From: Limnomonas spitsbergensis | Taxonomy: Eukaryota; Chlorophyta; Chlorophyceae; Chlamydomonadales | DNA length: 64,000 nucleotides | Direction: 5' to 3' | Assembly (NCBI GenBank): GCA_037349105.1 | Contig: JAYJMM010000082.1 | Coordinates: forward strand, 372,001 to 436,000 | Shown: piece by piece, positions 27,228 through 56,154 of the stretch | How positions within the stretch are numbered: position 1 is the stretch's first letter | Layout: each line of letters begins with the position of its first letter | Program-made: the position numbers and the translations under genes | The notes under the pieces: model-generated | Told to the model about the DNA's origin: nothing | Database searches by the model: none | Seen by the model: the letters and a program-made list of their open reading frames with translations, nothing else

Positions 27228-27306
27228 ACTCCTGGACAGATTGCGTTGCACGTGATGTTCTTTTGTGCCATCTCCAACGCCAACGTTTTGGTGAAACCGA
27301 TGATTC
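27228..27306 (-). CDS. SDR copy 1, exon 6 (last visible)
   Basis: This 79-nt exon encodes [17 protein letters not shown] and ends at ICPGV in phase 2 before GTGAGT. It differs from copy 2 at 19 of 79 positions. No exon 7 homologue follows before the minisatellite begins at 27116. Confidence 0.82.
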
Positions 27307-31571: not shown

Positions 31572-31624
<53 letters not shown>

Positions 31625-31684
31625 GGTTCTTAAGATCGGCTGGGGAGAAGATCACCTGAGGGTTGGGGGTTGAGAGTTCAGTGT

Positions 31685-31723
<39 letters not shown>

Positions 31724-31861
31724 GGTTCTTAAGATCGGCTGGGGAGAGAATCACCTGAGGGTTGGGGGTTGAGAGTTCAGGGTTGTAGGTTGAGGGTTGA
31801 GGGTTCTTAAGATCAGCTGGGGAGAAGATCACCTGAGGGTTGGGGGTTGAGAGTTCAGTGT

Positions 31862-31928
<67 letters not shown>

Positions 31929-34146
31929 GGTTCTTAAGATCAGCTGGGGAGAAGATCACCTGAGGGTTGAGGGTTGAGAGTTCAGTGTTGAGGGTTGAGG
32001 GTTCAGGGCTGAGGGTTCAGGGTTCAGGGTTGAGGGTTGAGGGTTGAGGGTTGAGGGTTCTTAAGATCGGCTGGGGAGAGAATCACCTGAGGGTTGGGGG
32101 TTGAGAGTTCAGGGTTGAAGGTTGAGGGTTGAGGGTTTTTGAGGAAAATATCGCTCAGGGTTTGGGGCTGAGCGTTAAAGGATGAAGATCACCAAAGGGT
32201 TGATAAATGTGGAGAGAAGATCATGTAGGTTCAGGGTTCAGGGTTCAGGGTTCAAGGTTCAAGGTTCAGGGTTCAGGGTTCAGGGTTCAGGGTACAGGGT
32301 TCAGGGTTCAGGGTTCAGGGTTCAGGGTTCAGGGTTCAGGGTTCAGGGTTCAGGAAAAAGATCACCAAGGGTGTAATTTTTTCAATTTTAGGTGGCAATC
32401 ACAAGATGGGGTGTAGAACTTAGGTCTACAGGGTACAGATCACGTAAGGTGTAAGGTGTAGGGTGTAGGACAGTAGGGTCAAAAACCGGAAATGGTTTAG
32501 GGGTTCGGCTCTTGGATTTAGGGTTCAGCATGTACTACTTCATAGATGTACACCATTGTACATCGGCACTGCTTCAGACGCAGTACAATCCTGCTAAGGC
32601 ACACTATCCTGCATACCTGTGAAGTCACACTATCCTGTGAAGTCACACTATCATGGGCACGTGTGAAGTCACACTATCCTGAGAAGTCACACTGTCCTGG
32701 ACACCTGTGCCAAATGCAATAGTCCTGTGCATGTCATGGATCTTGGCTGGATCTCCCAGTCATTGTGCGTCACTGGACAACAGCGTACAGATCATGTACC
32801 GCCACACTCACCTTAACGCCTGTGTTTGATGCGATTTTCTCGTGCAGATCCCGTATCTTGGCCGGATCTCCCAGTCCATGCATGGCCACACTGCATCCAG
32901 CTCCAGCCAGGGCGCGCAACATCTGGCAGGGCAGCAGCAGTGTTGCGTTAAGCATTCTTCAGCTACAATTCAGCTACCTCCCGGATCTTGACAGGATCTC
33001 CCTATCTATCTTTGGCCACAAGGCAACCAGCTCCAGCCAGGCCGTGCAACATCTGACAAGGAAGCAGGCGCCAGTCTTCTTCTTGTTGATATACTTTTTT
33101 ATGTTTCTTGTTGTGAGCATGCTTCAGCTGCCATTCAGCTACGGTGCGGCCTGCAGCCGCTGGGGGAGGGTACAGCAAGCCCCTGCTACTCACGCCACTA
33201 GCCGTAAGGTTTAGGGTTTATGGTTAAGGGTTTGGGGTTAAGGTTTGGGGTCAAGGTTTTAGGGTTAAGGTTTGAGGTTTAGGGTTTAAGGTTAAGGTTT
33301 AAGGGTTTAGGGTAAAAGGTAAATGTGTCGTCCTGATCCGTCCACTGTTGGCCCACCGAAAAGCTGGTATAGCGAACATTAAACAAAGCAACGATCAAAG
33401 GGTGCATGGTTGGCCAGCGACGAAATACTTGCATTTGACAGGCAAGCAGCAGTGCAGTAATTGCTTACGCTACTCAACCACATGTCAGCCACAAGTCAGC
33501 CACAAGTCAGCTACGTTCCGGCATACCGTCACATGCATCCTAAAGACTAGCCACACATCCCCCCGTTGATCAGGCCGAAGGCTTGGTCCTCAAATGACAT
33601 GGTTTGGTCCCAGTACGACCGGCAGGGGGGGAGTCCTGGAAAAAAGCTGTCCCGGTGGCTTACACTCGGTAGGAGGGGTGGGGCAGCCTCCAATGCCATG
33701 AGGTTGAGTCATATGATGATCTCCTAGGGATCTCCTAGGGGGTAGACTCAGCATAATCCTGGGACCCTACACATGCATTTCGGAGCCTCCCGAGAGGTCC
33801 CTCCGTCGTGTCCTTTCCTCTTAGACTTGTACGCGTGAGGCTGGCTGTCCAGCCCTGAAAATACTGGCGCCCAAACGCAAAAAGAACCCGGATGCGAATT
33901 CGTATCCTTGACTCCTCCATGTGGGCGTCCTACATCCTCCTAAAGTGTAGTAAAGACTACTTGATGTGAGTGGTCGCACGTTGTCTGCGGACAGAGGTCG
34001 CCTGCACCATGGGTGCATCTTGGCTCCCCGGATATGTCGGAAATTCGGAAATTTCAAATCGAGGCAGGTCGGTAGACATCACCTCGCACCTCGAGGCCGA
34101 TGCCCGACGTGGAGCCTGTCACCAGCGCAACCTTGCCCGCTAGCAT
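27228..34146 (-). CDS. D-3-hydroxybutyrate dehydrogenase-like SDR, copy 1 (5' six exons)
   Basis: Short-chain dehydrogenase/reductase resembling NAD-dependent D-3-hydroxybutyrate dehydrogenase, which interconverts 3-hydroxybutyrate and acetoacetate. Minus-strand exons are 34090-34146, 32812-32922, 31439-31535, 28722-28769, 27870-28040 and 27228-27306. Their lengths (57, 111, 97, 48, 171, 79 nt) equal those of the first six exons of copy 2, and all junctions are GT-AG in matching phase. The exons encode the TGSTSGIG cofactor loop, NNAG, the catalytic Ser (GSMHA) and the YxxxK pair. Exons 7-9 (about 74 residues) are absent: the sequence after the exon 6 donor runs into the 27-kb minisatellite. 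The gene may continue left of the window or be a truncated pseudogene. Residue 188, Trp in the bacterial enzyme, would be Val. No targeting peptide is visible, so a cytosolic enzyme is likely. Expression is unknown. Confidence 0.82.
27307..27869 (-). repeat. Copy 1 intron 5: telomere-like filler and exon 5 3'-edge copy
   Basis: Degenerate GGGTTTAGG and GGTTCAGGG-like heptamers lie at 27330-27500, and a short repeat of the type GGTTCATGGTCAAT at 27515-27600. On the minus strand near 27777-27812, a decayed copy of the last ~25 nt of exon 5 (ending AAGCACG) is followed by a GTGAG donor, downstream of the real exon. Confidence 0.75.
27870..28040 (-). CDS. SDR copy 1, exon 5 (catalytic exon)
   Basis: This 171-nt exon encodes the catalytic Ser in GSMHA and the YNAAK pair. 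It has five differences from copy 2, all synonymous. The Asn normally found in the INLS motif is Cys here (AVCLSS), as in copy 2. Confidence 0.9.
28094..28125 (-). repeat. Exon 5 5'-edge copy upstream of exon 5 (copy 1)
   Basis: On the minus strand this reads AG followed by AGGACGCGTGGGATGATG, a truncated copy of the beginning of exon 5 with its splice acceptor. It lies about 55 bp upstream of the true exon. The same arrangement occurs in copy 2 at 49202. Confidence 0.8.
28244..28692. repeat. GGTCAC short tandem repeat in copy 1 intron 4
   Basis: Degenerate repeats based on CACAGGTCACGGGTCACA fill most of the 681-bp intron between exons 4 and 5. Because the unit lacks stop codons it creates spurious Gly/His/Arg-rich open frames on the plus strand. 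Confidence 0.9.
28722..28769 (-). CDS. SDR copy 1, exon 4
   Basis: This 48-nt exon encodes the NNAG motif and [12 protein letters not shown]. The Gln corresponds to Gln94 of the Pseudomonas fragi enzyme, a substrate carboxylate ligand. The donor is GTAAGC. It has five differences from copy 2, all synonymous. Confidence 0.87.
29094..29247 (+). mobile_element. MITE-like element, family M, copy 1
   Basis: This 154-bp element begins CAGTGCTGT and ends ACAGCACTG, so it has terminal inverted repeats. Its interior carries GTAGCTGAATTTGCCTTAAA and an ACTCAGCTACG stretch, which are mutually complementary around AGCTGA. It has no coding capacity. No clear target-site duplication is visible. Confidence 0.8.
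29641..29794 (+). mobile_element. MITE-like element, family M, copy 2
   Basis: This 154-bp copy has the same flanks as copy 1 (ATTTGGAT on the left, ACCCCCC or similar on the right, then ATGCTTCTCACC). It therefore arose by tandem duplication of a ~545-bp intron segment, not by separate insertion. Confidence 0.8.
30888..31031 (+). mobile_element. MITE-like element, family M, copy 3
   Basis: This is a diverged member with termini CAGTGTTGT and CACAGCAATG. The core GTAGCTGAATTTGCCTTAAT is conserved. It lies in intron 3 of SDR copy 1, close to another small element at 31069. Confidence 0.7.
31069..31251 (+). mobile_element. Short TIR element, family G, copy 1
   Basis: This ~183-bp non-coding element starts GTTTCTTTTCCGGCC and ends AAATAAAGAAAC, giving a terminal inverted repeat of about 8 bp. 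Its interior is GC-rich with AGCAGGCCGCCC and GGCCTCCGG. A homologue lies at 45625-45809 in a different intron of SDR copy 2, which indicates independent insertion. Confidence 0.65.
31439..31535 (-). CDS. SDR copy 1, exon 3
   Basis: This 97-nt exon encodes [15 protein letters not shown] and onward to the strand ending DIL. It is identical to exon 3 of copy 2 over all 97 nt, and the first ~90 nt of the following intron are also nearly identical. The acceptor is CCTCAG and the donor GTGAGT. Confidence 0.88.
31536..32210 (-). repeat. Exon 3 5'-edge decoy array, copy 1 intron 2
   Basis: In gene orientation, at least five copies of the start of exon 3 (AGGTGATCTTCTCCCC, then AGCTGATCTTAAGAAC) are separated by CCCTCAA/CCCTGAA heptamers. 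They occur near 31655, 31752, 31832, 31952 and 32092, with further eroded copies up to about 32440. Each retains the CAG/GTGAT junction of the true acceptor, but each is cut off after about 35 nt and runs back into heptamers. Confidence 0.88.
32224..32357. repeat. GGTTCAG heptamer array
   Basis: About 18 near-perfect heptamers of GGTTCAG type lie in intron 2 of SDR copy 1. The sequence resembles degenerate telomeric repeat but is interstitial. Confidence 0.9.
32600..32811 (-). repeat. Copy 1 intron 2: GAAGTCACACTATCCTG repeats and exon 2 3'-edge copy
   Basis: Four imperfect copies of GTGAAGTCACACTATCCTG lie at 32618-32700. At about 32730-32765 the minus strand carries a decayed copy of the end of exon 2 (CTGGGAGATCCAGCCAAGAT). 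Copy 2 has the equivalent fragment at 42681. Confidence 0.7.
32812..32922 (-). CDS. SDR copy 1, exon 2
   Basis: This 37-codon exon ([16 protein letters not shown] at its start) has acceptor CCAG and donor GTGAGT. It is nearly identical to exon 2 of copy 2 in its first 65 nt and diverges in the last 45 nt. Confidence 0.87.
32960..33060 (-). repeat. Decayed exon 2 duplicate upstream of exon 2 (copy 1)
   Basis: On the minus strand CAGATGTTGCACGGCCTGGC begins a degenerate copy of exon 2. It ends GATCCGGGAGGTAGCTGAAT with in-frame damage. SDR copy 2 has the same kind of decayed exon 2 in the same place (42384-42476), so the duplication either predates the paralogues or was shared by conversion. 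Confidence 0.8.
33061..34089 (-). other. Remainder of copy 1 intron 1
   Basis: Degenerate TTTAGGG-type heptamers occupy 33205-33330. The rest (33330-34089) is non-repetitive; I see no conserved open frame or RNA gene in it. Confidence 0.7.
34090..34146 (-). CDS. SDR copy 1, exon 1
   Basis: The start codon is at 34146. The exon encodes the first beta strand and the Rossmann glycine motif TGSTSGIG, and ends in phase 0 before donor GTGCGA. It differs from exon 1 of copy 2 at 16 of 57 positions by hand alignment. Confidence 0.85.
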
Positions 34147-36613: not shown

Positions 36614-36766
36614 CAGTGCTGTGCAATTACGCCTTCATTCATAAATCGTATGAATAATTAAGGTCCCTTGAGGGTAAAGTAGCTGAATTCGCCTTGAAAT
36701 TACGGTGACCGAAACTCAGCTACACCATTCAGCTACCGTCAGGTCTGTCATCGGCGCTCAGCACTG
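36614..36766 (+). mobile_element. MITE-like element, family M, copy 4
   Basis: This 153-bp member has termini CAGTGCTGTGC and GCTCAGCACTG and the conserved core GTAGCTGAATTCGCCTTGAA. It ends 8 bp beyond the stop codon of the HECT gene, so it probably forms part of that gene's 3' UTR or polyadenylation region. Confidence 0.82.
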
Positions 36767-41512: not shown

Positions 41513-41569
41513 ATGTTGGCTGGGAAAGTAGCCCTGGTGACCGGTTCGACCCAAGGCATCGGGCTAGAG
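41513..41569 (+). CDS. SDR copy 2, exon 1
   Basis: ATG at 41513 begins [19 protein letters not shown], the cofactor-binding strand and glycine loop. The exon ends in phase 0 at GTGAGT. The start is supported by the homologous start in copy 1 and by the normal family N-terminus. Confidence 0.92.
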
Positions 41570-44500
41570 GTGAGTTTGCAGATCCCGAGGTGCCGATCAG
41601 GCCTGTCATAGGCGTTTCCTTTTTAGGCAGCGCGTAATCGTCGTAATCGGGACCTTGGCGAGGGTCTGCAGATCATACACCATCCAATGGTGCTTTGGGG
41701 GGAGCACTCTTGCCTGCTAGTCTGCACACTTGCCATGCTCGTTTGCATGCATGCCATGCCAATTCGCTTGCATGCCGTGTTTTTGGTGTTCTGCCTGCAT
41801 CAGGCTAGCGATGCTGTTTATGAGAGTGCTGGTGCTGGAGACCAGCATGCAGTACACATGCACGTAGCATACAGTGAGCAGAGCCTGCGTGCAACCATTG
41901 ACATTTACGCTGTTGGCGTTTCTGTTTGTTCTCTGGTGCCTGTTTCGGTTTTCTTTTCTGGCTTCCTCCCGGTTCGCTCTGTCTGGCCCTGTCGCAAAAG
42001 GCTGTGGGTGGTTGCGTCAACTTTGTTACAGCAACATTTACGCAACACGTTGGCAGTGAGGTAGTGAAATGAGGTGCAGAGAGCATCAGTGTGCCATTGC
42101 CGTGATTCAGGTTGCCTCGATCCATCCCCAAACTCCAACTTGTAAATACTTAACCCTACCCTTCTTCCACCCCTTGACCCTCACCCCCATTTCCCTTGAC
42201 CTGAAACCCTGAACTGCCTCACCCCTCAACCGTCAACCCTGCCCCCAATGCATCATGCTTTTAACGCTCTGCTCTAGTCGAACAAGGCCTACGCCTGGAG
42301 ACCCTGCCCTTGCTACCTCTCTTCGCCTTTGTTCTTTTTCATGATGCAAGGCATTTGAAAAATACCCTTCTGCTTGCTGCCTGCTTGCCCGCCGGATGCT
42401 GCGCTCCCTGGCCGGAGCTGCATGCCATGTGGCCATGCGTGAACTAGGAGATCCAGCCAAGATCCGGGACGTAGCTGAATTGTAGATAAAGCATACTTAA
42501 CGCAAAACTGCTGCTGTTCTGCCAGATGTTGCGCGCCCTGGCTGGAGCTGGATGCAACGTGGCCATGCATGGACTGGGAGATCCGGCAAAGATCCGGGAT
42601 CTGAGCCAGAAGCTGGCATCTGACACAGGTGTTAAGGTGAGTGTGACGTCACGGAATTGTAGTTCGTAGGATGTTGTACAAATGTACGCTGATGTGCATG
42701 GACTTGGAGATCCAGCAAATGCTTCTAAGCCTACCATGCCTTGGAATCACAAGCCGGCTAAACGTCTGCCGCATCATGATGTGTCGTGCGCCTTGGTAGT
42801 ACAATCGGACTCAATCTATGCCGAGCTGTGCTGTACTGTGCTGTTTCGTGCTACCTTGGTAGCACAGAGCAGGTTAAATTTGTCACCTGTACCGCATCAT
42901 GATGTGTGAATGTGTCGTGCTACCTTCATAGCACTACCTATGCCGACGCACATGCTTTTAAGCATACCATGCCTTGGAATCACAAGCCGCAGCTAAGCGT
43001 CTGCCGCATCATGATGTGTCTTGCACCTTGGTAGGCAATGGGACTAAACCTGTGCCGAGCTGTGCTGTACTGTGCTGTATCATGCTACCTTGGTAGCACA
43101 AAGCTGATTACACTTGTCACCATTGCCTTATCATGCTGTATCATGCTGTATCGTGCTACCTGCGTGGCACAAACCGACTCAACCTGTACCGTGTCGTCTT
43201 GAACCTAAACCCTAGAATATTGCCTCTCCTCAACCCTCAACCCTCAACCCCTTAGGTTGTCTTCTCCCCTAAGGATCTTAAGAAGCCTCAACCCTCAACC
43301 CTTAACCCCTTAGGTGATCTTCTCCCCTGCACATCTTAAGAAGCCTCAACCCTCAACCCTTAACCCCTTAGGTGATCTTCCCCCCTGCAGATCTTAAGAT
43401 GCCTCAACCCTCGACTCTTAACCCCTTAGGTGATCTTCCCCCCTGCGGATCTTAAGAACCCTCGACCCTCAACCCTCAACCCTTTGGTGATCTTTCCCCT
43501 TGCGGATCTTAAGCACCCTCAGCCCTCAACTGTTAACCCTCACCCCTTACTTGATCTACTCCGCTGCGGATCTTAAGAACCCTCAACCTTCAACCCTAAG
43601 GTGATCGTCTCCCCAGCTGATCTCAAGAACCCTCAACCCTGAACCCTCAACCCTGAACTCTCGACCCTCAACCCTAAGGTGATTTTCTCCCCAGCCGATA
43701 TTTAGAACCCTCAACCCTCAACCCTGAACCCTCAACCCTGAACTCTCAACCCTCAACCCTAAGGTGGTTGTCTCCCCAGCTGATCTTAAGAACCCTGAAC
43801 CCTGAACCCTCAACACTGAACTCTCAACCCTCATCCCTAAGGTGGTTGTCTCCCCAGCTGATCTTAAGAACCCTCAACCCTCAACCCTCAACACTGAACT
43901 CTCAACTCTCAACCCTCAGGTGATCTTCTCCCAGCTGATCTTAAGAACCCTCAACCCTCAACCCTCAACCCTGAACCCTCAACACTGAACTCTCAACCCT
44001 TAACCTTAAGGTGGTTGTCTCCCCAGCTGATCTTAAGAACCCTCAGCCCTCAACCCTCAACACTGAATTCTCAACCGTCAACCCTCAGGTGATTTTCTCC
44101 CCAGCTGATCTTAAGAAGCCGGCGGAGATCCGGGCCATGGTCAAGAGCACGGCCGACACCTTCGGGAGCAAGCTGGACATCTTGGGTGAGTGGATCCAAG
44201 AGTGGATCTCACAGGGATCTAAACAGATCTGAATGGATCCAACTGGATATAAATGGAAATAAGTATTAAGACCCAAGTGGATCTCACGGGGATCAAAATG
44301 GATGCAACTATCTGAATGGAGAAAAATACATTGATCCAAATGGATCCCAGTGGATCTAAATAGGGGGATATGGAGAAACCGGTATTTGGGAGTGTTGCAT
44401 GCTGTGAGAAGAGGGAGAGGGAGGATAAGGGTATTATGGGAGCAGCTTGGACATGCTGGATGAGAATCAGGAGAGGAGGGAGAGAGGTATCATGGGGGCA

Positions 44501-47500
44501 AGCCTAACGTGCTGGGAAAGGAGGAGAACGGGTCTTATGGGCATGGGGCATGCAGGAGGAGGAGTGGTGTTATTGTGTGTTTGTGCGCGTGTGTGTGTGT
44601 GGGGGGGAGGGCATACAAAAAAGGTTGACACCTGTTGTTTACATATTGGAACTCGTTTTAACTGTCACCCCTTCCTTTGCCCCTGTCCGTCTGTTCCCCT
44701 ACCTTCTCTACCCTCCTTGTAACCTGCCCACCTCTCCCTCTTCCTCTGTTGGTATCCAGGTCCCCCCCCCCCTCTTGGCCTGACACTGCCCCCCCCTTCA
44801 CCCGTCTTTCACACCAATCTCCTCCCCCCTCATAACCTACCCCTCCCTCTCCCCCCTCTATGCAGTCAACAACGCTGGCATCCAGTTTGTCAGCCCCGTT
44901 GTGGACTTCCCGGGTAAGCCCTAGACAAGTAGATCATACACCGTACGCCCTACACCCTTACACCCTATGCCCTACAGCCTGTACCCTATACCCTTACACT
45001 CTACACCCTATACCCTTACACCCTACGCCCTATACTATTACAACCTACGCCCTTACACCCTATGCCCTACTCCCTCACACCCTATACCCTTAAACCCTAC
45101 GCCCTACACCCTTACAACCTACGTCCTATACCCTTACAACCTTCGCCCTATACCCTGACACGCAACGCCCTTATACCCTACGCCCATAGACCCTAGCCTA
45201 TATCTCGTCGATCCTTAAGCCTTGTCCGCCAACCAGTGATGTGTAATTGCGCCTTAATTGAGAAATTGTGCCAGTAAGTACCAGGGGTAACCCTGGAGAT
45301 TTCGGTTCATTCCTGGTAATACAAGCTGAACTTGCCTCGGAATTACGGTGACTGAAACTCAGCTATGCAGTTCAGCCACTGTAAGGATCGTAATCGGCAC
45401 CGCACTACCACCAACCCTAGCTTGGCTGCTATATCTGGCGATCTTGCTCGCTTCGACATTGCTAAGGTATGTATCGCACTTTATGCTGTAACCGTGTGAC
45501 TCGTCAGTTTCCCCTCCTTCTGCCACGAGTCCACCTGTGGCAGGCCACCCTACCCCTCCACCCTCTCCCAGTCCCCCGCTCCCCTCCCCGCCCTCCCCCT
45601 CCACCCTCTCCCCTCCACGTTTGCGTTTATTTTCCGGCTACGAGTCCACCTGCAGCAGGCCGCCCTGCGGGGCCGCTAGAGACTCCATCAGGAGCAAGCC
45701 TGGGCCGGCCTACGGCTGGTGGCCAAGGCAGCATGGCTGGCCACAAAGCGTGCCTCCGGCCAGAGGCCGTATTGTAGCTGACATGTAGCCGAGTCTCAAA
45801 AAAAGAAACTCCATGACCTGTGCCAAAGACCTGCAACCTATCACCTACCACCTAGCTTAGGGTTTAGGGCCCTAAACCTTGAACCCTAAACTAAACCCTT
45901 ACCCTACACCCTAAAAATGTCTTTCCCTTAAGGCTGGGGACCCAAGCAGAAGTCTTTCCCTTAAGGCTGGGGACCCAAGCAGAAGTCTTTCCCTTAAGGC
46001 TGGGGACCCAAGCAGAAGTCTTTCCCTTAAGGCTGGGGACCCAAGCAGAAGTCTTTCCCTTAAGGCTGGGGACCCAAGCAGAAGTCTTTCCCTTAAGGCT
46101 GGGGACCCAAGCAGAAGTCTTTCCCTTAAGGCTGGGGACCCAAGCAGAAGTCTTTCCCTTAAGGCTGGGGACCCAAGCAGCAGCCTTTCCCATAAGGCTG
46201 GGGACCCAAGCAGAAGTCTTTCCCATAAGGCTGGGGACCCAAGCAGCAGCCTTTCCCTTAAGGCTGGGGACCCAAGCAGACGTGTTTCCCATAAGGCTGG
46301 GGACCCAAGCAGCAGCCTTTCCCTTAAGGCTGGGGACCCAAGCAGAAGTCTTTCCCATAAGGCTGGGGACCCAAGCAGAAGTCTTTCCCATAAGGCTGGG
46401 GACCCAAGCAGAAGTCTTTCCCATAAGGCTGGGGACCCAAGCAGAAGTCTTTCCCTTAAGGCTGGGGACCCAAGCAGAAGTCTTTCCCATAAGGCTAGGG
46501 ACCCAAGCAGACGTGTTTCCCTTAAGGCTGGGGACCCAAGCAGAAGTCTTTCCCATAAGGCTGGGGACCCAAGCAGAAGTCTTTCCCATAAGGCTGGGGA
46601 CCCAAGCAGACGTGTTTCCCTTAAGGCTGGGGACCCAAGCAGACGTGTTTCCCTTAAGGCTGGGGACCCAAGCAGAAGTCTTTCCCTTAAGGCTGGGGAC
46701 CCAAGCAGAAGTCTTTCCCATAAGGCTGGGGACCCAAGCAGAAGTCTTTCCCATAAGGCTAGGGACCCAAGCAGACGTGTTTCCCTTAAGGCTAGGGACC
46801 CAAGCAGACGTGTTTCCCATAAGGCTGGGGACCCAAGCAGAAGTCTTTCCCTTAAGGCTGGGGACCCAAGCAGAAGTCTTTCCCTTAAGGCTGGGGACCC
46901 AAGCAGAAGTCTTTCCCTTAAGGCTGGGGACCCAAGCAGAAGTCTTTCCCATAAGGCTGGGGACCCAGGCTGGGGACCCAAGCAGCAGCCTTTCCCTTAA
47001 GGCTGGGGACCCAAGCAGAAGTCTTTCCCATAAGGCTGGGGACCCAAGCAGAAGTCTTTCCCTTAAGGCTGGGGACCCAAGCAGAAGTCTTTTCCTTAAG
47101 GCTGGAGACCCAAGCAGAAGTCTTTCCCTTAAGGCTGGGGACCCAAGCAGCAGCCTTTCCCATAAGGCTGGGGACCCAAGCAGAAGTCTTTCCCATAAGG
47201 CTGGGGACCCAAGCAGCAGCCTTTCCCTTAAGGCTGGGGACCCAAGCAGAAGTCTTTCCCATAAGGCTGGGGACCCAAGCAGCAGCCTTTCCCTTAAGGC
47301 TGGGGACCCAAGCAGAAGTCTTTCCCATAAGGCTGTGGACCCAAGCAGAAGTCTTTCCCTTAAGGCTGGGGACCCAAGCAGAAGTCTTTTCCTTAAGGCT
47401 GGAGACCCAAGCAGAAGTCTTTCCCTTAAGGCTGGGGACCCAAGCAGCAGCCTTTCCCATAAGGCTGGGGACCCAAGCAGAAGTCTTTCCCTTAAGGCTG

Positions 47501-50500
47501 GAGACCCAAGCAGAAGTCTTTCCCTTAAGGCTGGGGACCCAAGCAGAAGTCTTTCCCTTAAGGCTAGGGACCCAAGCAGACGTCTTTCCCTTAAGGCTGG
47601 GGACCCAAGCAGAAGTCTTTCCTTTAAGGCTGGGGACCCAAGCAGAAGTCTTTCCCTTAAGGCTGGAGACCCAAGCAGAAGTCTTTCCTTTAAGGCTGGG
47701 GACCCAAGCAGAAGTCTTTCCCTTAAGGCTAGGGACCCAAGCAGACGTGTTTCCCTTAAGGCTAGGGACCCAAGCAGACGTGTTTCCCTTAAGGCTGGGG
47801 ACCCAAGCAGACGTGTTTCCCTTAAGGCTGGGGACCCAAGCAGACGTGTTTCCCTTAAGGCTGGAGACCCAAGCAGAAGTCTTTCCCTTAAGGCTGGGGA
47901 CCCAAGCAGAAGTCTTTCCCTTAAGGCTCGGGACCTAAGCAGAAGTCTTTCCCTTAAGGCTGGGGACCCAAGCAGCAGCCTTTCCCTTAAGGCTGGGGAC
48001 CCAAGCAGAAGTCTTTCCCTTAAGGCTGGGGACCCAAGCAGAAGTCTTTCCCTTAAGGCTGGGGACCTAAGCAGAAGTCTTTCCCTTAAGGCTGGGGACC
48101 CAAGCAGAAGTCTTTCCCTTAAGGCTGGGGACCCAAGCAGCAGCCTTTCCCTTAAGGCTAGGGACCCAAGCAGACGTGTTTCCCTTAAGGCTGGGGACCC
48201 AAGCAGAAGTCTTTCCCTTAAGGCTGGGGACCCAAGCAGACGTGTTTCCCTTAAGGCTGGGGACCCAAGCAGAAGTCTTTCCCTTAAGGCTGGGGACCCA
48301 AGCAGACGTGTTTCCCTAAAGGCTGGGGACCCAAGCAGAAGCCTTTTTGGCTGCAGCTTAATCGCTGCAAGACTGGGTCCCCCCCCCTTACTTTGTTTAA
48401 GCGGGCACGTGGGATGATGTCACGGCTATTATTTCCTGCTTCCCGCTCCCACTTATTCCCACTTATTCCCACTTATTCCCACTTATTCCCATTTTTTCCC
48501 AGCTCCTGCTCCTGTTTATTTCCCACTATGCCCCCCACGCACAACTCCCATAGATTCCCCTCCCCGCTCCCATTAATTCAATTATTATTCACTCCTGCTC
48601 TATGTAGAGGACACGTGGGATGAAGTCATTGCCATTATTCCCCTCTTACCTCCCTTTCCTATTTTCCCTTGCTACTCGCTCCTAATTATTCCTTGCTCCT
48701 AATCATTCCTTGCTCCTAATCATTCCTTGCTCCTAATCATTCCTTGCTCCTAATCATTCCTTGCTCCTAATCATTCCTTGCTCCTAATCATTCCTTGCTC
48801 CTAATCATTCCTTGCTCCTAATCATTCCTCGCTCCTAATCATTCCTTGCTCCTAATCATTCCTTGCTCCTAATCATTCCTTGCTCCTAATCATTCCTTGC
48901 TCCTAATCATTCCTTGCTCCTAATCATTCCTCGCTCCTAATCATTCCTTGCTCCTAATCATTCCTTGCTCCTAATCATTCCTTGCTCCTAATCATTCCTT
49001 GCTCCTAATCATTCCTTGCTCCTAATCATTCCTTGCTCCTAATCATTCCTCGCTCCTAATCATTCCTCGCTCCTAATCATTCCTTGCTCCTAATCATTCC
49101 TTGCTCCTAATCATTCCTTGCTCCTAATCATTCCTTGCTTCTCACTCCCATTCATTATTACCTGCACCTCGCTCCCAATGATTCCCTGCCCCTACTGCCT
49201 GCAGAGGACACATGGCATGATGTGATTCACTAAATCCCCGCTCCAATTTATTTTCCTTTCCCCGCTTACCGTTGCATTCTTAGAGGACAAGTGGGATGAT
49301 GTGATTGCTGTGTGCCTGAGCTCCGCATTCCACACCAGCAAGGCCGCGCTTCCCTACATGCTGGAGGGTGGCTGGGGGCGCATCATCAACACGGGATCCA
49401 TGCACGCGCTGGTGGCATCGCCCTACAAGTCTGCGTACAACGCGGCCAAGCACGGTGAGTCATGAGCAAGCTTGCGTGACAAAGCTTGGTCTGTCATGCC
49501 CTGCCCTGAGCCATGAACACAGTGTTCAACACGGCTGAACAGGTTGAGATATGAGCTGCATGCATGAGACGCAGGTACCGACCCACAAAATTTGCAGGTA
49601 CTCAGTGCAAAAAGAAGTTTTCGAATTTTAGCTCAAAAAAGTTTTCGAGACTTCGTGCAAAAAAAAAGCTGACAGTTCGGTCTATCCTGCTTTCCCCTGA
49701 TCCATGAACACTGCGTGCAGTGCAGCTTAGCACGGTGAGTCGTGTGACAGCTTGCGTGTGATAGCTTGGTCTGTCTTGCTATGCCCTGAGCCACGGTGAG
49801 TCATGACGTATGAGTTATGAGCTGCTTGTATTTCAAACTTGGTCTGTCTTGCTATGCCCTGAGCCTTGAACACAGCGGTCAACGCGGGCTAAGCACGGTG
49901 AGTCATGACTTATGAGCTGTTGCATGGGACGGCATGGTCTGTCATGTTGTGAAGTGAGCCGTGGAAACCCTAAAACCTAAAACCTAAAGCTAGGCATCGG
50001 GCGGCATGGTCTGTCCTGTTGTGAAGTGAGCCGTGGAAACCCTTAAACCTAAAACCTAAAGCTAGGCATCGGACGGCATGGTCTGTCCTGTTGTGAAGTG
50101 AGCCGTGGAAACCCTTAAACCTAAAACCTAAAGCTAGGCATCGGACGGCATGGTCTGTCCTGTTGTGACGCGAGCCCTGGATACTCGAAAAATGCAGCTA
50201 AGCACAACGGGTTTTGGTACCTCTCCTTCCCTAAATCTTACATTGTAAACCCTACCCTATATCATGAACCCTGTCCTAAATCTGAACCTCCCCTAAATAA
50301 TTCATAAGCCCTACCCTCCTTCTCTAATTTTTGACCCCGAACCCCTGATTTAATGTACATATATCGCTGGCTTCACCAAGACATTGGTTCTGGCAACCCT
50401 GAACCCCTGAACCCCTGAACCCCTGAACCCCTGAACCCCTGATTTAATGTACAGGTATCGCTGGCTTTACCAAGGCGTTGGTTCAGGCAACCCAAAACCC

Positions 50501-53500
50501 CTGAACCCCTGAACCCCTGAACTTCTGAAACCCTGATATGTGCAGGCATTGCTGGCTTCACCAAGACGTTGGCGCTGGAGGTGGCCAAGCAGAACATCAC
50601 GTGCAATGCCATCTGCCCTGGATAGTGAGTTTCAAAATTAAAAAATCAAATTTTGAATGAATTAAGATTGAAAGAAGATCATTGCGAGGTGGCCACGCAG
50701 AACATCACGTGCTATGCAATCTGCCCCGGTTAGTGGGTTTTAAAATTTAAAATTCGTTTTTTAAATATATCAAGATCGAATGGTGATCATTGCCAGGTGG
50801 CCAAGCAGAACATCACGTGCAGTGCTATCTGCTCTGGATAGTGGGTTCCAAAATTCGATATTCAATCATCGAATACCGGTACATGAAATACTGTGAGGTG
50901 GCCAAGCAGAACATCACGCGCAATTCGATCAACCCTGGATAGTGATGTTCAAAATTCGAGAATCGGATACCATTACATAGACTGCAGTGACTTGGCCAAG
51001 CGGAACATCACGTGCGATTCGCCCCGAATAGGGAGTTTCAAAATCCGGAATTCAATGTTTGGACGTATAAAAGAAAAATGAGGATGGTTGCAAGGTGGCC
51101 TGGTAAACAAAGCAAACTGCTCCGGAGGGTGAGTTTCAAAATTCGAAATGTCGTCACCGGTATTTGAATGAAGCGACATTGAATGAAGCCCCTCAAGCAT
51201 GCTGACAAGTTGCGACTCCTAGCAGTGCTGTTTTTTGACCTGCCCCGATTCAAGACTCACAACACTTTTTGTGTGCCTTAACCGTTCACCTGAACGATTG
51301 GTGAAACCAGGGTAAAACCTCTCGGCGTGAAATGCCCTAGCTGGTCGTGAGGGAAATCGTAAATGATTACTGAGGTACCGTCGAGTGATTGATCCACAGT
51401 TGCAATGACACGGGGAAGAATGCGCGTATCCTGTACGGGCAGGTCTAATCGCCTATACCTAGGGATCCGTTAAACATCACGAAGGATTGGACACCACGTG
51501 TCGTCCTTACTTCTTTGTGCCCTTACGCGTGCTCACAAGTCCCCCCCTAAACCCCCTAAACCCCCTACCCCACCCCTAAGCTCTAAACCTCTCCTGAGGA
51601 TGCCGTTGACCGTATTCATGATTCCTTCTCAGATGCGATGCTTGCAAACCCTTTATTGTTCTGCCCTCAAGCATGCTCACAAGTCACACACCCCAGCCTT
51701 CTCATGAGGATGCCATCTACCGTATTCATGATGCCTACTCCGATGCAATGTCCACAAATCCTTCATTGCTCTGCCCTCAAGCGTGCTCACAAGGCCCCAC
51801 CCCCCTCCCCTAGCCCCTCCCGAGGATGCCATTTATTTAAGATTCCAGCCCCATGCGATGCTCACAAACCTGCCCTTGTTCCGCTCTGGAGCATGCTCAA
51901 GGATCGCAACTCCTAGCCCCTCGCTAAGATGTCGGTAACTTAAGAATCCCTCCCAATTCAATGCTCGCAACCCTCAGTTTGCCCTTCAGCATGGTCACAT
52001 GTCACCCCCACCCAGCCCTTCCTGAGGATGTCACTTATTCAAGATGCCCGCCCCGATGCGATGCTCGCAAACCCTTCATTTTCTGCACGCTCGCAAATCC
52101 CAGCCCCTCCAAGCCCTTGCGACGATGCTGTTTCTTGATGATGCCTGTCCCATTGCTATACAACCAACCCCCATTTGTTCTGCTCCCTTAGGGTGCTGAG
52201 TCAGCACTGTACTGATTTCGGTGTTTTCGGTGGCTGAGTTACGTAGCTGAGTGTCAGCTACCGAAATTTCAAGGCACCTTTACCTACTTTTAACAGTGGG
52301 GACAGAAATTACCATCAAGATTTCTGAATCGCCGCGCAATCAAACAGCAGTGGTTTTGACAGATCTGGTCAGTTACCAGATTGGCAATGTTGCTTTCAAC
52401 TGCTTCCAACCGCTTCCAACTGCTCCCACTTTTCTGCCATTCTTTTGCCCCGCAGCGTGCTGACTGATCTGATCCGGAACCAGATTGACGACACGGCTCG
52501 TGTCCGTGGCATCCCTCGCGAAAGTGTGATCAATGATGTACTGCTGGCAGACCAGGTGCGCGGGAAATGTGATCAGCAGTGTACCGCTGGCCGGACGAAG
52601 GCGTGGGAAGTGTGATCAATAGTGTACTGCTGGCCGACCAAGGACAGGGGAAGGGTGATGCGCTCAGATCTACTCATCTCCAGGTTTTCAGATTACTCAT
52701 GGCTTTGACGAGGATTTGCTTGTGACGACCCCAAGGACGTGGACAGGACACTTGTGTTGGAAGCTCAGTGCCCTTGCCCCTCCCCACCCATCAAACCCAC
52801 TGCCCACCATGCAGTTTGATGCGGGGGAGGAACCACAAGAACGTGGGCACAAACCTTTTGTTCACCTCTCACCACTAAACTCTCAGCTCTGTCACTTGAA
52901 ACCTGAAGCCTGAAACCCCCCACACACCCTCTGCCCCCACTATCAACCTCAAAGCCGACCAAGCAGTTGGTGGACCCCAAGGGCCTGGGTGCGCTGTTGC
53001 TGTTACAAGAAACTTGCAACCATAACTCCGTCACCTGAAACCCCAAGCCTGACCCCTCTCTGGCCCCCTTGGTAACCCTTCAGCTGACCCTTAACCCTAA
53101 ACCCTTCAGCTGACCAAAAGCAGTTCGTTAACACCAATGACCTGGGGCACAGCTGTGCTAAAATCACAACTCTCAACACTTAACTCTGAAACCTCAAGCC
53201 CGAACCCGACTCTGGCCCCCCTGTCACCCCCACGGTCGACCAAGCAGGTTTTGCATGCCAAGTACCTGCATGCACTGCTGCTGACCTCTCAACTCTGAAA
53301 CTTTAAACCTGCAGCCTGAAGCCTGAACCCCACTCAGGCCCCCCTATCAAACCCACAGCTGTTCAAGCAGTTTGTGGATCCCAAGGACCTGGGTGCGCTG
53401 GTGTTGAACTCTCAACTCCGAAACCTGAAGTCTGAACCCCTCCTCTACCTTTCCCTATCCACCCCATAGCCCACCAAGCAGTTTGTGGATCCCAAGGACC

Positions 53501-56154
53501 TGGGTGCCCTGGTGCTGTTACATGAAACCTACAGCCTGACCCACCCCCCTCTACCCCCCCCCCCCATCCACTACATCCACCCTACAGCCCACCAAGCAGT
53601 TTGTGGATCCCAAGGACCTGGGTGCCCTGGTGCTGTTGCATGAAACATACAGCCTGAAACCTGAAGCCTGCCCTCCCATCCACCCCACAGCCCACCAAGC
53701 AGTTTGTGGATCCCAAGGACCTGGGTGCCCTGGTGCTGTTGCATGAAACATACAGCCTGAAACCTGAAGCCTGCCCTCCCATCCACCCCACAGCCCACCA
53801 AGCAGTTTGTGGATCCTAAGGACCTGGGTGCCCTGGTGCTGTTGCATGAAACATACAGCCTGAAACCTGAAGCCTGCCCTCCCATCCACCCCACAGCCCA
53901 CCAAGCAGTTTGTGGATCCCAAGGACCTGGGTGCCCTGGTGCTGTTGCATGAAACCTACAGCCTGACCCACCCCCCTCTACCCCCCCCCCCATCCACTAC
54001 ATCCACCCTACAGCCCACCAAGCAGTTTGTGGATCCTAAGGACCTGGGTGCCCTGGTGCTGTTGCATGAAACCTACAGCCTGACCCCCCCTCCTCTACCC
54101 CCCCCCCCCCCCCCATCCACTACATCCACCCTACAGCCCACCAAGCAGTTTGTGGATCCCAAGGACCTGGGTGCCCTGGTGCTGTTGCATGAAACCTACA
54201 GCCTGACCCACCCCCCTCTACCCCCCCCCCCCCCATCCACTACATCCACCCTACAGCCCACCAAGCAGTTTGTGGATCCCAAGGACCTGGGTGCCCTGGT
54301 GCTGTTGCATGAAACATACAGCCTGAAACCTGAAGCCTGCCCTCCCATCCACCCCACAGCCCACCAAGCAGTTTGTGGATCCCAAGGACCTGGGTGCCCT
54401 GGTGCTGTTGCATGAAACATACAGCCTGAAACCTGAAGCCTGCCCTCCCATCCACCCCACAGCCCACCAAGCAGTTTGTGGATCCTAAGGACCTGGGTGC
54501 CCTGGTGCTGTTGCATGAAACATACAGCCTGAAACCTGAAGCCTGCCCTCCCATCCACCCCACAGCCCACCAAGCAGTTTGTGGATCCCAAGGACCTGGG
54601 TGCGCTGGTACTTCACCTGTGTGGCCCACACTCATCCTCATTCACTGGGGCGTGCATTTCGGTAGACGGTGAGTGCGAACAAGCGGTGTGTGGGCCTGTG
54701 TATGTGTGTGTAGGGGGGGGGGGCATGCGTCTCGGTAGACGGGGAGTGCGAATGAGCGATTTGTGTGTGTGGGGGCATGCGTCTCGGTAGACGGGGAGTG
54801 CGAACGAGTGGTGGGGGGGTGGGGGCATGCATTGGTAGATAGTGAGTGCAAACAAGCGGTGGGGGGGGGGAGAGGGCATGCATCTTGGTAGACAGTGAGA
54901 ACAAGCGGGCATGGGGGGGAGAGGGCAGTTGGGACAACTAACAAAGGTAGGTCGGTAGGGTTTAAGCTGGCATGGGGGGGTAGGTTATCTCGGTAGATAC
55001 CGGTAGTGAGAGCAAGCTGGTGGACAGGGAGGTAGGGGTGAGATGCACATGGCGAGAGTGATCGGGTGTGGTGCACCGGGCGAGCGGGTGGTGTGTCTGA
55101 GTGTATTTCGGTAGAGGGTGAGAGCAAGCGGAGGAGGGGGGGGCTTTTGCCTCTTTTGGAGGTGAGAGCGAACGGGCGGGTGGTGGGGGGGATGCAACTA
55201 ACGAGGGCAGGCGGTAGGGTACAGGTGGCTGTGGGCATGCATCTCGGTACATGGTGAGAGCAAGCGGACAGGGGGAGGAGGGGAGGGGAGGGGGCATCCT
55301 GGTAGATGGTGAGAGCAAGCGGACAGGGGGAGGAGGGGAGGGGAGGGGGCGTCCTGGTAGATGGTAAGAGCAAGCGGACAGGGGGAGGAGGGGAGGGGAG
55401 GGGGCATCCTGGTAAATGGTGAGAGCAAGCGGATAGGGGGAGGAGAGGAGGGGAGGGGGCATCCTGGTAGATGGTGAGAGCAAGCGGACAGGGGGGGGAG
55501 GGGAGGGGAGGGGGCATCCTGGTAGATGGTGAGAGCAGGCAGGTGTGGGGGCTGGGGGATACATTCAATAAGGGTAGGCAGGTAGGGTACAGCTGGTGTG
55601 TGGGAGGGGGGGTGGGGCCGTCTCGGTAGGGTACAGCTGGTGGGGTTTGTGGGAGGGGGTATCTCTGTAGATTGTGCGGTGGACATGAAGGGTGAGGGGG
55701 AGGGTAGGGGGAGATGCAAATAATAAGGGCAGGCAGTAGAGTACAGCTGGCAGGAGCGGGGTGTGAATCTTTGTAGATGGTGCGAGGAAGCAGGCAGGGG
55801 GGGGGAGGGAAGGAGGGACGCAACTAACAAAGGCCGGTTGGTAGGGTGAAAATTGGCAGGCGGTAGAGTAAAGCTGACAGGAGTGGGGCGTGTATCTCTG
55901 TAGACGGTGAGAGGAAGCAGGCTGGACTAGCTGGCAAGTGGCGAGGACTTTCTGACGGTGCCAAGCTGGTTGAGCCGAGCAACTACCTGCCCCACACAGC
56001 ATGCTCAATGTTCCGAACTCATTGCGTAAGATATAAGGAATCCGTCTGATGCCAGCGCCCTTTGATCTCGTCTTATGTTGTCTGGATCTGGCACGTGCCA
56101 ACTTTCTCTTGTATTTGAATTTGAATTTGACAGGTGGATGGACTGCCCGTTAAA
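41513..56154 (+). CDS. D-3-hydroxybutyrate dehydrogenase-like SDR, copy 2 (complete, nine exons)
   Basis: Exons are 41513-41569, 42526-42636, 44089-44185, 44866-44913, 49284-49454, 50546-50624, 52456-52555, 54566-54668 and 56135-56154. They total 786 nt, give 261 residues, and every GT-AG junction closes in phase. The protein fits bacterial-type NAD-dependent D-3-hydroxybutyrate dehydrogenase (EC 1.1.1.30): TGSTQGIG (10-17), NNAG (90-93), Ser143, Tyr156, Lys160, and the end VDGGWTAR. Residues matching the Pseudomonas fragi substrate site at plus-one numbering are Gln95, His145, Lys153, Gln197 and Trp258. Position 188 is Tyr instead of Trp, and the conserved Asn of the SDR tetrad is Cys115. 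There is no targeting presequence, so it is probably cytosolic. It could act on a related hydroxyacid. Introns make up about 95% of the gene and are built from exon-edge duplications, minisatellites and small elements. Confidence 0.9.
41570..42525 (+). other. Copy 2 intron 1 with decayed exon 2 duplicate
   Basis: Most of it is non-repetitive and holds no recognisable gene. At 42384-42476 lies a degenerate whole-exon copy of exon 2 (GATGCTGCGCTCCCTGGCCG, ending GATCCGGGACGTAGC), 50 bp upstream of the true exon. It contains disabling changes. Copy 1 has its counterpart at 32960-33060. Confidence 0.8.
42526..42636 (+). CDS. SDR copy 2, exon 2
   Basis: These 37 codons (residues 20-56) lie between acceptor TGCCAG and donor GTGAGT. 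They encode the helix after the glycine loop and GDPAKIRD. Confidence 0.92.
42637..43230 (+). repeat. Copy 2 intron 2, first part: exon 2 3'-edge copy and ~215-bp duplication
   Basis: A fragment of the end of exon 2 (GCATGGACTTGGAGATCCAG) lies at 42688-42720. It is followed by two diverged ~215-bp units (about 42715-42930 and 42945-43190). These contain CATACCATGCCTTGGAATCA and hairpin-prone GCTACCTTGGTAGC, with CTGTGCTGTA runs. Confidence 0.72.
43231..44088 (+). repeat. Exon 3 5'-edge decoy array, copy 2 intron 2
   Basis: Twelve truncated copies of the exon 3 start (AGGTGATCTTCTCCCC, then a short GATCTTAAGAA segment) occur at about 60-90 bp spacing from 43250. They are separated by CCCTCAA/CCCTGAA heptamers. 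Copies nearest the true exon are the closest to it (AGCTGATCTTAAG); the distal ones share their own variants (TGCAGATCTTAAG, TGCGGATCTTAAG). Each carries an AG/GT junction at the acceptor position. Confidence 0.9.
44089..44185 (+). CDS. SDR copy 2, exon 3
   Basis: This exon covers residues 57-88 plus one nt ([15 protein letters not shown] onward). The acceptor is the CAG at 44086-44088. A second CAG 16 nt inside the exon would shift the frame, so the first is the productive one. The exon is the last and only full-length member of a 13-unit series. Confidence 0.92.
44186..44865 (+). repeat. Copy 2 intron 3 with exon 3 3'-edge copies
   Basis: After the donor come repeated GGATCTCACAGGGATCTAAA-type fragments. 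Eroded copies of the exon 3 end follow (GGGAGCAGCTTGGACATGCT near 44430 and similar near 44493 and 44530). Before exon 4 lie a GT-rich run (44580-44610) and a long C-rich pyrimidine tract. Confidence 0.65.
44866..44913 (+). CDS. SDR copy 2, exon 4
   Basis: This 48-nt exon encodes [15 protein letters not shown] (residues 90-104) between TGCAG and GTAAGC. It carries substrate residue Gln95. Confidence 0.92.
44914..45233 (+). repeat. CCCTATACCCTTACA repeats at start of copy 2 intron 4
   Basis: Degenerate 7-8 bp repeats of the form CCCTACGCCCTATACC fill 44940-45195. They resemble eroded telomeric sequence but are interstitial. Confidence 0.8.
45234..45406 (+). mobile_element. MITE-like element, family M, copy 5
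   Basis: This 173-bp diverged member has termini CAGTGATGT and ACCGCACTA. It has a short extra segment after AAATTGTGCCAGTAA and retains CTGAACTTGCCTCGGAATTA and the ACTCAGCTATG half. It lies in intron 4 of SDR copy 2. Confidence 0.72.
45625..45809 (+). mobile_element. Short TIR element, family G, copy 2
   Basis: This 185-bp homologue of 31069-31251 begins GTTTATTTTCCGGC and ends CAAAAAAAGAAAC. It shares GCAGGCCGCCC, GGCAGCATGGCTGGCCACAA and GCCTCCGGCCAGAGGCCG. A fragment of the same family (CACGAGTCCACCTGTGGCAG) lies at 45522-45550. Confidence 0.65.
45919..48345. repeat. 33-bp minisatellite, about 73 units, in copy 2 intron 4
   Basis: The unit is GTCTTTCCCTTAAGGC followed by TGGGGACCCAAGCAGAA, with recurrent CATAAGG, CAGCCTT and GACGTGT variants in scrambled order. 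One partial junction at about 46968 changes the frame. Since 33 bp is 11 codons and the unit has no stop in several frames, open frames of 353-711 codons appear on both strands. They carry no independent evidence of coding and lie within an intron. Confidence 0.95.
48401..49230 (+). repeat. Exon 5 5'-edge copies upstream of exon 5 (copy 2)
   Basis: Three truncated copies of the exon 5 start lie at 48401-48430, 48605-48633 and 49202-49230 (AGAGGACACGTGGGATGA type). The last two are preceded by TGTAG or TGCAG acceptors. Each loses homology after 25-30 nt and continues into ATTCCC-rich intron sequence. Confidence 0.88.
48680..49140. repeat. 17-bp tandem array CATTCCTTGCTCCTAAT
   Basis: About 27 nearly perfect 17-bp units lie just upstream of exon 5 of SDR copy 2, with occasional CTTGCT to CTCGCT changes. 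They form a long pyrimidine-rich stretch that may contribute branch-point or polypyrimidine sequence. Confidence 0.95.
49284..49454 (+). CDS. SDR copy 2, exon 5 (catalytic exon)
   Basis: Residues 105-161 include Cys115 (normally Asn), Ser143, His145, Lys153, Tyr156 and Lys160. The acceptor is TTAG and the donor GTGAGT. Confidence 0.94.
49455..50360 (+). repeat. Copy 2 intron 5: exon 5 3'-edge copies and 72-bp repeats
   Basis: Copies of the exon 5 end plus donor (GCACGGTGAGTC) lie at 49731, 49792 and 49888-49907 (AACGCGGGCTAAGCACGG). Each is followed by the same CTTGGTCTGTC intron text as the true donor. Three 72-bp units containing TAGGCATCGG follow at 49991, 50063 and 50135. Confidence 0.85.
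50361..50545 (+). repeat. Exon 6 5'-edge copies upstream of exon 6
   Basis: Two truncated copies of the exon 6 start (TATCGCTGGCTTCACCAAGA type) lie at 50361-50394 and 50454-50488. They end at about 34 nt and are separated by GAACCCCT repeats that also precede the true exon. Confidence 0.88.
50546..50624 (+). CDS. SDR copy 2, exon 6
   Basis: This exon encodes [16 protein letters not shown] to ICPGY (residues 162-188). The acceptor is TGCAG and the donor GTGAGT, with phase 2 at the end. Confidence 0.92.
50625..51140 (+). repeat. Exon 6 3'-edge copies downstream of exon 6
   Basis: Five copies of the exon 6 end with donor (GAGGTGGCCAAGCAGAACAT onward to GGATAGTGAGTTTC) start at about 50686, 50794, 50895, 50985 and 51090. 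The first two are close to the exon; the later ones are increasingly degraded, giving a gradient of decay with distance. Confidence 0.9.
51490..52201 (+). repeat. ~110-bp repeats with exon 7 acceptor-like edges
   Basis: Six or so units each contain a CTGCCCTCAAGCGTGCTCAC motif (51528, 51663, 51772, 51887, 51981, 52190). This aligns with the exon 7 acceptor and start (TGCCCCGCAGCGTGCTGAC). The rest of each unit includes CCTGAGGATGCC and GATGCGATGCT. I interpret these as old exon 7 5'-edge copies. Confidence 0.65.
52202..52353 (-). mobile_element. MITE-like element, family M, copy 6
   Basis: This 152-bp element is in reverse orientation relative to the others. It runs from CAGCACTGTACTGATTTCGG to AACAGCAGTG. 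It sits in intron 6 of SDR copy 2, about 100 bp upstream of exon 7. Confidence 0.72.
52456..52555 (+). CDS. SDR copy 2, exon 7
   Basis: Residues 189-221 ([15 protein letters not shown] onward to LLADQ) include Gln197. The acceptor is CCGCAG and the donor GTGCGC. Confidence 0.9.
52556..52680 (+). repeat. Exon 7 3'-edge copies downstream of exon 7
   Basis: Two fragments (GTGATCAGCAGTGTACCGCT at 52569 and GTGATCAATAGTGTACTGCT at 52611) repeat the last ~35 nt of exon 7. Each is followed by altered donor sequence. Confidence 0.85.
52800..54565 (+). repeat. Exon 8 5'-edge decoy array
   Basis: Ten near-identical truncated copies of exon 8 start at 53470, 53588, 53691, 53794, 53897, 54014, 54137, 54257, 54360 and 54463, with about five eroded copies earlier (near 52810, 52960, 53108, 53235 and 53355). 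Each has a TACAG, ACAG or ATAG acceptor and about 48 nt of exon ([15 protein letters not shown] in the correct frame). It then switches to CTGTTGCATGAAAC and intron sequence, lacking the second half of the exon. C-rich tracts separate some units. Confidence 0.95.
54566..54668 (+). CDS. SDR copy 2, exon 8
   Basis: Residues 222-255 begin [15 protein letters not shown] and continue [17 protein letters not shown], ending VDG. This is the only unit in the long upstream series that carries the second half of the exon and a GTGAGT donor. Confidence 0.92.
54669..55930 (+). repeat. Exon 8 3'-edge decoy array
   Basis: About 16 copies of the last ~18 nt of exon 8 with its donor and the start of intron 8 (TCGGTAGACGGTGAGTGCGA) run to about 55915. 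The first few resemble the true site closely. The central six (about 55280-55530) are 56-60 bp units with GGTAGATGGTGAGAGCAAGC and a G-rich spacer. Confidence 0.93.
56135..56154 (+). CDS. SDR copy 2, exon 9 (terminal)
   Basis: A 20-nt coding tail completes GGWTAR and a TAA stop after acceptor GACAG. Trp258 matches the conserved C-terminal Trp of bacterial D-3-hydroxybutyrate dehydrogenases, which supports this very short exon. Confidence 0.87.

Follow-up and report, generated by a model that had tools for sequence, protein, structure and literature searches.

In Limnomonas spitsbergensis, which is probably an Arctic snow alga, introns contain truncated copies of the edges of neighbouring exons: copies of the 5' edge, with the acceptor, lie upstream of the intact exon, and copies of the 3' edge, with the donor, lie downstream. 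The pattern was found in an SDR gene within the window, which is the whole stretch of 64,000 nucleotides that was analysed, and it reaches beyond this gene into unrelated families. Local tandem duplication at random positions, combined with splicing at the innermost sites, is the probable explanation of these copies.

The gene concerned, SDR copy 2 (41513..56153, + strand), comprises nine exons separated by GT-AG introns, and its spliced frame is intact over 261 codons, encoding 261 aa. It was identified as a 3-hydroxybutyrate dehydrogenase (TIGR01963, 338 bits; cut-off 307), and its best two relatives, one in Chlamydomonas eustigma and one in Chlamydomonas sp. UWO 241, exhibit 82% identity over the full length. 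Exons 1-5 lie at 41513-41569, 42526-42636, 44089-44185, 44866-44913 and 49284-49454, and exons 6-9 at 50546-50624, 52456-52555, 54566-54668 and 56134-56153, the last with the terminal stop TAA. Each exon with 20 nt of flank was used as a query against 41-57 kb, with a cut-off of E <= 0.001; in this search, exon 9 was taken to end at 56158, its stop TAA ending at 56153. On the sense strand, it gave one upstream truncated copy for exon 2, 12 upstream copies for exon 3, one upstream and two downstream copies for exon 5, two upstream and five downstream copies for exon 6, one downstream copy for exon 7, and 15 upstream and four downstream copies for exon 8. For exons 1, 4 and 9, no truncated copies were obtained in the same search. 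All the upstream copies include the acceptor and the exon start, and all the downstream copies include the exon end and the donor, the sole exception being a downstream fragment from the interior of exon 2 (positions 41-65). This bears out the first-pass annotation as to which part of an exon is copied on which side. The copies on both sides that it had described for exons 3, 5, 6, 7 and 8 are present at exons 5, 6 and 8, the copies of exon 3 being confined to its upstream side and the one copy of exon 7 lying downstream, and the copy numbers are 1 to 15 rather than the 2 to about 16 that it had given.

The copies of SDR copy 2 all lie on the + strand. The exon 2 copy (-14..74, with acceptor; 42381..42469, 82% identity) has a counterpart upstream of exon 2 of SDR copy 1. 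The 12 copies of the 5' edge of exon 3 (about -19..32, with acceptor), which are recorded by TRF, extend over 43236..44042 with 77-90% identity and a spacing of 47-91 bp. Exon 5 is accompanied by one 5'-edge copy upstream (-2..25; 48605..48632, 89% identity) and by two 3'-edge copies with donor downstream (49711..49908, 77 and 80% identity). At exon 6, the two upstream 5'-edge copies carry the acceptor (50339..50481, 78 and 82% identity) and the five downstream 3'-edge copies carry the donor (50686..51148), with identities of 88, 92, 89, 81 and 78% that decay with distance. The single 3'-edge copy of exon 7, with donor, lies downstream at 52608..52659 (81% identity). The 15 copies of the 5' edge of exon 8 (up to -19..47, with acceptor) occupy 52783..54509 with 73-97% identity, higher near the exon, and a spacing of about 97-166 bp, the most regular part being of 103 bp; the four 3'-edge copies with donor downstream of this exon (54772..55922; three at 54772-54908 and one at 55884-55922) exhibit 79-86% identity.

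Other repeats are also present in the window. Most of intron 4 of SDR copy 2 is occupied by a 33-bp array (45919-48346) and a 17-bp array (48678-49139), which no exon matched in the search described above. A dispersed element of ~145 bp has six matches in the window (36610-36755, 29641-29785, 30888-31010, 29094-29238, 45324-45398 and 52228-52290), five of them within SDR gene introns. A large imperfect palindrome (58284-61686) has arms at 58284-59408 and 60572-61686 that are 83% identical, one of which overlaps a ~170-bp tandem repeat. The window also contains an intronless open frame of about 812 codons (36781-39216, - strand) with a HECT ubiquitin-ligase domain (E 8.5e-24).

The paralogue, SDR copy 1, lies on the - strand, with exons 1-3 at 34146-34090, 32922-32812 and 31535-31439 and exons 4-6 at 28769-28722, 28040-27870 and 27306-27228; together, exons 1-6 (27228..34146) yield 187 codons in an open frame. 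Exons 7 and 8 have their matches beyond the left end of the window, at C82:366172-366060 and C82:364910-364796. Intron 6 of this copy, between exon 6 and the exon 7 match, holds a 23-bp satellite (window 1-27116, continuing left of the window from about C82:367711), which measures about 31 kb if unbroken.

Exon-edge copies, likewise on the - strand, are present in SDR copy 1. Upstream of exon 3 there are five 5'-edge copies with acceptor (31624..32106, 92-96% identity), compared to 12 in copy 2, and downstream of it two 3'-edge copies with donor (28978..29346, 78 and 81% identity). Exon 2 has one upstream copy (33067-32979, 81% identity) and one downstream copy with donor (32761-32688, 73% identity). 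The same exon search gave neither the exon 3 downstream copies nor the exon 2 donor copy in copy 2; conversely, no edge copies were obtained at exon 6 of copy 1, the exon 6 arrays being found in copy 2 alone. Left of the window, the exon 7 match has one downstream copy, and the exon 8 match has three upstream copies and one downstream copy. Exon 3 itself is identical at 97/97 positions between the two SDR copies (44089-44185 and 31535-31439), the intron flanking it is also alike, and exons 2, 4, 5 and 6 differ; recent gene conversion is a possible origin of the exon 3 identity.

The kinship of the exon 8 arrays was scored at ten positions that distinguish the exon 8 starts of copy 1 and copy 2. 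The four units of copy 1 match their own exon at 6-9 of the 10 positions and the exon of the other paralogue at 0-2. Among the 14 units of copy 2, 11 match their own exon at 8/10 positions, and the rest at 6/10, 4/6 and 9/9. As the exon 8 arrays match their own exon, they were formed, or formed anew from the living exon, once the paralogues had diverged. The occurrence of arrays at the exon 3 and exon 8 edges of both paralogues is not predicted by random placement alone, unless the arrays were inherited and then homogenised. These shared arrays, the recurrence of copies at edge after edge, and the resemblance of each exon 8 array to its own exon would all agree with duplication directed to splice sites, in which R-loops coupled to splicing, RNA-templated repair or GTGAGT/CAG microhomology would target the exon edges.

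Whether other genes share the pattern was a question raised by the first-pass annotation, and the answer is affirmative. The test sample comprised 126 exons in 32 segments, from three unrelated families (chaperonin, aldehyde dehydrogenase and dynein) retrieved by profile searches of the genome, some of the sampled genes being split over several segments. The splice ends of these genes were set by profile continuity and by our own splice-site scores. All 13 aldehyde dehydrogenase profile matches were used; 16 of the 72 chaperonin matches and 32 of the 89 dynein matches, which fell beyond the retrieved DNA, and the 139 kinesin matches were left out of the exon count. Edge copies are present at 47 of the 126 exons, a share that applies to this sample of three conserved families in one genome with predicted exon boundaries. 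They occur in 21 of the 32 segments, at 13/56 chaperonin, 6/13 aldehyde dehydrogenase and 28/57 dynein exons, and ten exons of the 126 have them on both sides. Upstream, 103 of the 103 edge-bearing copies (29 exons) hold the 5' edge, and downstream, 115 of 115 (28 exons) hold the 3' edge, with none reversed on either side. There are thus 218 sense edge copies, compared to a single antisense match, which overlaps its own exon. Matches without an edge comprise seven upstream and three downstream matches to exon interiors, two upstream matches to the intron flank, and two that overlap another exon. A sense copy of any kind within its own segment was found for 55/126 exons, compared to 0/126 for shuffled exons and 1/126 in segments of a different family. 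A control against the segment of another gene gave 18/126 exons, probably because many segments are of the same family, and the different-family control was used instead.

Two arrays supply about half of the edge-bearing copies, and exon counts are therefore the safer measure. One consists of 51 copies of the 5' edge of a dynein exon (C119:2182001-2190000), with about 13 nt of exon per repeated unit, and the other of 54 copies of the 3' edge of a chaperonin exon (C37:664001-674000), with about 20 nt. The shift of the nearest copy has a median of 182 bp and is mostly 140-210 bp. The ratio of aligned length to shift, expected to be close to 1 for copies that adjoin strictly head to tail, is at least 0.8 in only 27/52 nearest copies, with a median of 0.88, 6/52 rows being long low-identity alignments through whole exons that are probably over-extended. 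The geometry of the copies is accounted for by tandem duplications with one breakpoint in the exon and one in the intron, as had been proposed at the outset.

Tandem duplication of mutually exclusive exons requires complete exons with both splice sites; among the 126 exons, no sense copy holds both edges, and this candidate was rejected. Introners, which are mobile intron elements, or another dispersed repeat carrying splice sites could also leave copies bearing splice sites, and Introners are known in green algae according to the accessible text of PMC9860276. However, the 103-bp exon 8 unit, the single unit searched against the genome, gave 12 matches that all lie at its own locus, such a search giving a lower bound, and the comparison with different-family segments yielded matches for only 1/126 exons, as mentioned above. 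An origin from mobile or dispersed elements is hence extremely improbable. The assembly was built from PacBio CLR reads polished with Illumina reads, according to the accessible part of PMC11228838, and long-read errors in repeats could be suspected of having produced the arrays. Nevertheless, the copies differ from their exons by 3-30%, are strictly one-sided, and are spread over the 21 segments and, by the criterion of the junction test described below, over 16 contigs, and errors are not expected to respect exon edges. We attach next to no probability to an assembly artefact.

The first-pass annotation had taken splice-site-bearing segments to be the substrate of duplication, and had proposed comparing exon-edge copies with other intron repeats. 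This comparison was made on 72 introns from 20 segments, four of which introns are too short to have an interior; windows of 30 nt were scored as duplicated when 24 or more of their positions matched a neighbour no more than 2 kb away, and limits were obtained by bootstrap over segments. At this threshold, 12/72 acceptors are duplicated upstream and 11/72 donors downstream, none is duplicated on the wrong side, and the averages for interior windows are 0.172 (upstream) and 0.199 (downstream). The ratio of junctions to interiors is 0.86 (95% limits 0.52-1.33), with 0.85 (0.57-1.24) at 22 matches and 0.71 (0.37-1.30) at 26 matches; at the loosest threshold, of 22 matches, 1/72 windows is duplicated on the wrong side. 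With a gapped 60-nt probe, 18/72 and 15/72 junctions are duplicated, compared to 99/348 and 127/348 interior probes, which gives a ratio of 0.71 (95% limits 0.48-0.98), and 2/72 acceptor probes have a downstream match. Within the SDR discovery gene, the ratio is 0.75-1.09. By two methods, there is no excess of duplication at junctions over intron interiors, the limits of the first method allowing a modest excess. The idea of a splice-site-bearing substrate was not borne out, and exon-edge copies exhibit no excess over other repeats in these introns. Duplication directed to splice sites, which would have to raise junctions above interiors, is unlikely in spite of the recurrent arrays of the two paralogues.

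A forward simulation was performed with random tandem duplication, conserved exons and built-in innermost-site splicing. It gave ratios of 1.16, 0.98, 0.74 and 0.41 for junction tolerances of 1, 0.75, 0.5 and 0.25, and a first setting gave 1.15, 0.67, 0.37 and 0 for tolerances of 1, 0.5, 0.2 and 0. No wrong-side copies were produced; this one-sidedness follows from the assumption of the simulation, and the ratios are the test. The observed value of 0.86 fits random duplication, and would mean that about half to three quarters of the junction-crossing events survive, with wide limits. Random local duplication with innermost-site splicing suffices, and targeting to splice sites is not needed.

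A decay of the copies with distance from the true exon had also been described, and identity was compared with distance in nine arrays of at least four copies. In SDR copy 2, rho is -0.67 at exon 3, -0.70 at exon 6, and -0.74 upstream and -0.89 downstream of exon 8. One chaperonin array gave -1.0 (four copies) and one aldehyde dehydrogenase array a weak -0.2. No distance decay is observed in the 51- and 54-copy arrays (rho 0.03 and -0.07) or at exon 3 of SDR copy 1 (0.34). The described decay is therefore present after exon 6 and at exons 3 and 8, and absent from the two largest arrays elsewhere. As the neutral simulation also leans towards negative values (median rho -0.40 over 87 arrays of at least four copies), no special process has to be invoked for the gradient. 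It was not accepted as proof that the arrays grow in a polar manner, given this negative neutral expectation and the flat profile of the two largest arrays.

The copied splice sites are largely preserved. Bases were counted in the decoys of the first 88 of the 126 exons and of the SDR copies: AG is kept in 98/112 decoys (68/76 in other genes and 30/36 in SDR) and GT in 82/93 (72/78 and 10/15, respectively). Decoy site bases do not differ significantly from flanking bases (Wilcoxon p of 0.43 and 0.12 for the test genes and of 0.63 and 0.84 for SDR). Selective disabling of the decoys was rejected, the site bases being kept as well as the flanks. Outside the SDR gene, 17/27 acceptor exons and 16/25 donor exons have one or more decoys that equal or exceed the real site in score, and decoys that do so amount to 37/99 acceptors and 24/100 donors in the other genes. 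Well-kept AG and GT and the many high scores are features that functional decoys or alternative exons would exhibit, i.e. arrays kept to regulate splicing by slowing it or by producing truncated isoforms. However, the site bases are not significantly better kept than their flanks, the arrays differ between the paralogues, and use of a decoy would nearly always break the frame, with a frameshift or stop predicted for 114/118 acceptors and 95/96 donors. A regulatory role is accordingly quite improbable.

The innermost acceptor is transcribed last, so a first-come rule would choose the wrong site; that strong decoys have persisted upstream therefore suggests that splice-site choice here is probably governed by exon definition. 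From homology and reading frame, we infer that real splicing occurs at the inner sites, the exon ends of the test genes having been picked beside the profile matches, a choice that favours inner sites. For SDR, the full-length protein homology suggests that the mRNA is unchanged.

On the explanation that we favour, short local tandem duplications would arise frequently and at random positions, with shifts mostly of 140-210 bp, and would build up in and around introns. We infer slippage or unequal exchange as their molecular cause. A duplication that crosses a splice junction would leave in the intron an exon edge that is cut short but retains its splice site, and the intact exon would always be the innermost copy. 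The first-pass annotation had invoked selection keeping one intact exon each time; the intact exon is indeed always innermost, and what is required is splicing at the innermost sites, because the intact exon is always the downstream one of the two copies when the duplication crosses an acceptor, and the upstream one when it crosses a donor. If the innermost acceptor and donor were spliced, by exon definition, the mRNA would remain unchanged and the change would be nearly neutral. Repeated events and slippage inside arrays would then produce arrays of decoy sites and a longer intron, and older copies would be pushed outward and decay there.

Of the DNA in the 72 introns, 47.5% consists of local repeats (56% and 39% at other thresholds). 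Their share grows with intron length (rho 0.56, p 2.5e-7), being 13.5% for the shortest quartile of introns and 64% for the longest. The non-repeat part also grows, from 182 to 448 bases, and repeats are therefore a large but not the sole component of long introns.

Published work offers partial parallels. In the AGGT model of intron gain, as far as its accessible description goes, local tandem duplication provides splice sites, as it would here, but both sites derive from a duplicated exonic AGGT and create a new intron, whereas here both the copied junctions and the introns that receive them already existed. Other partial intragenic duplications that touch splice sites reportedly, by their titles, concern intron creation, not truncated edges within existing introns. 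In the nearest published case, that of the potato RdRp gene, a new intron arose from one tandem duplication that spanned an intron-exon boundary (PMC4974935, accessible text). As in the present case, the duplication copied the acceptor, the polypyrimidine tract and the exon start; unlike here, it is described as one case, in which the copied acceptor is used, giving a new intron and extra exon sequence. In L. spitsbergensis, by contrast, the cases are many, the mRNA is presumably unchanged and the intron is only lengthened. Introners resemble the present copies in being intronic copies with splice sites, algae included, but they copy themselves into many genes, according to the accessible part of PMC9860276, whereas the copies here are local and come from the gene's own exon. 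In Drosophila, some new introns have been tied to tandem duplication of coding sequence (PMC2891723, accessible text).

For L. spitsbergensis itself, the accessible text of the genome paper gives a repeat content of 33% and an average intron length of 788 bp, and does not report the exon-edge pattern (PMC11228838); the accessible portions of the papers on related algae (PMC7617258, on the Haematococcus genome, PMC11247165, PMC8226300 and PMC5966456) do not report it either. The average intron lengths given in PMC11247165 are 788 bases for L. spitsbergensis and 934 for UWO241. None of the literature matches listed, whose coverage leaves subscription papers mostly outside, describes it. This agrees with the initial statement that no named system matches it at such a scale, the potato RdRp gene being, in its accessible text, the one published boundary-crossing case (PMC4974935).

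Duplication across a splice junction, usually anecdotal, becomes here a class of event that can be measured, since a single genome holds many natural replicates of it. The real and decoy sites are matched and differ mainly in position, which makes splice-site choice testable with the existing transcript data of the species, the IsoSeq and RNA-seq described in PMC11228838; its published annotation comprises 18,277 genes. The process would constitute a transposon-free route to intron growth, about half of the sampled intron DNA being local repeat, and gene prediction in such genomes would face many near-perfect false splice sites. We give an even chance to a genome-wide ratchet of intron growth, in which a strict innermost-site rule would allow junction-crossing duplications to be tolerated almost like intronic ones, so that many exons would be flanked by decoys re-seeded from the living exon. 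If this is true, the genome would be a natural saturation experiment on exon definition.
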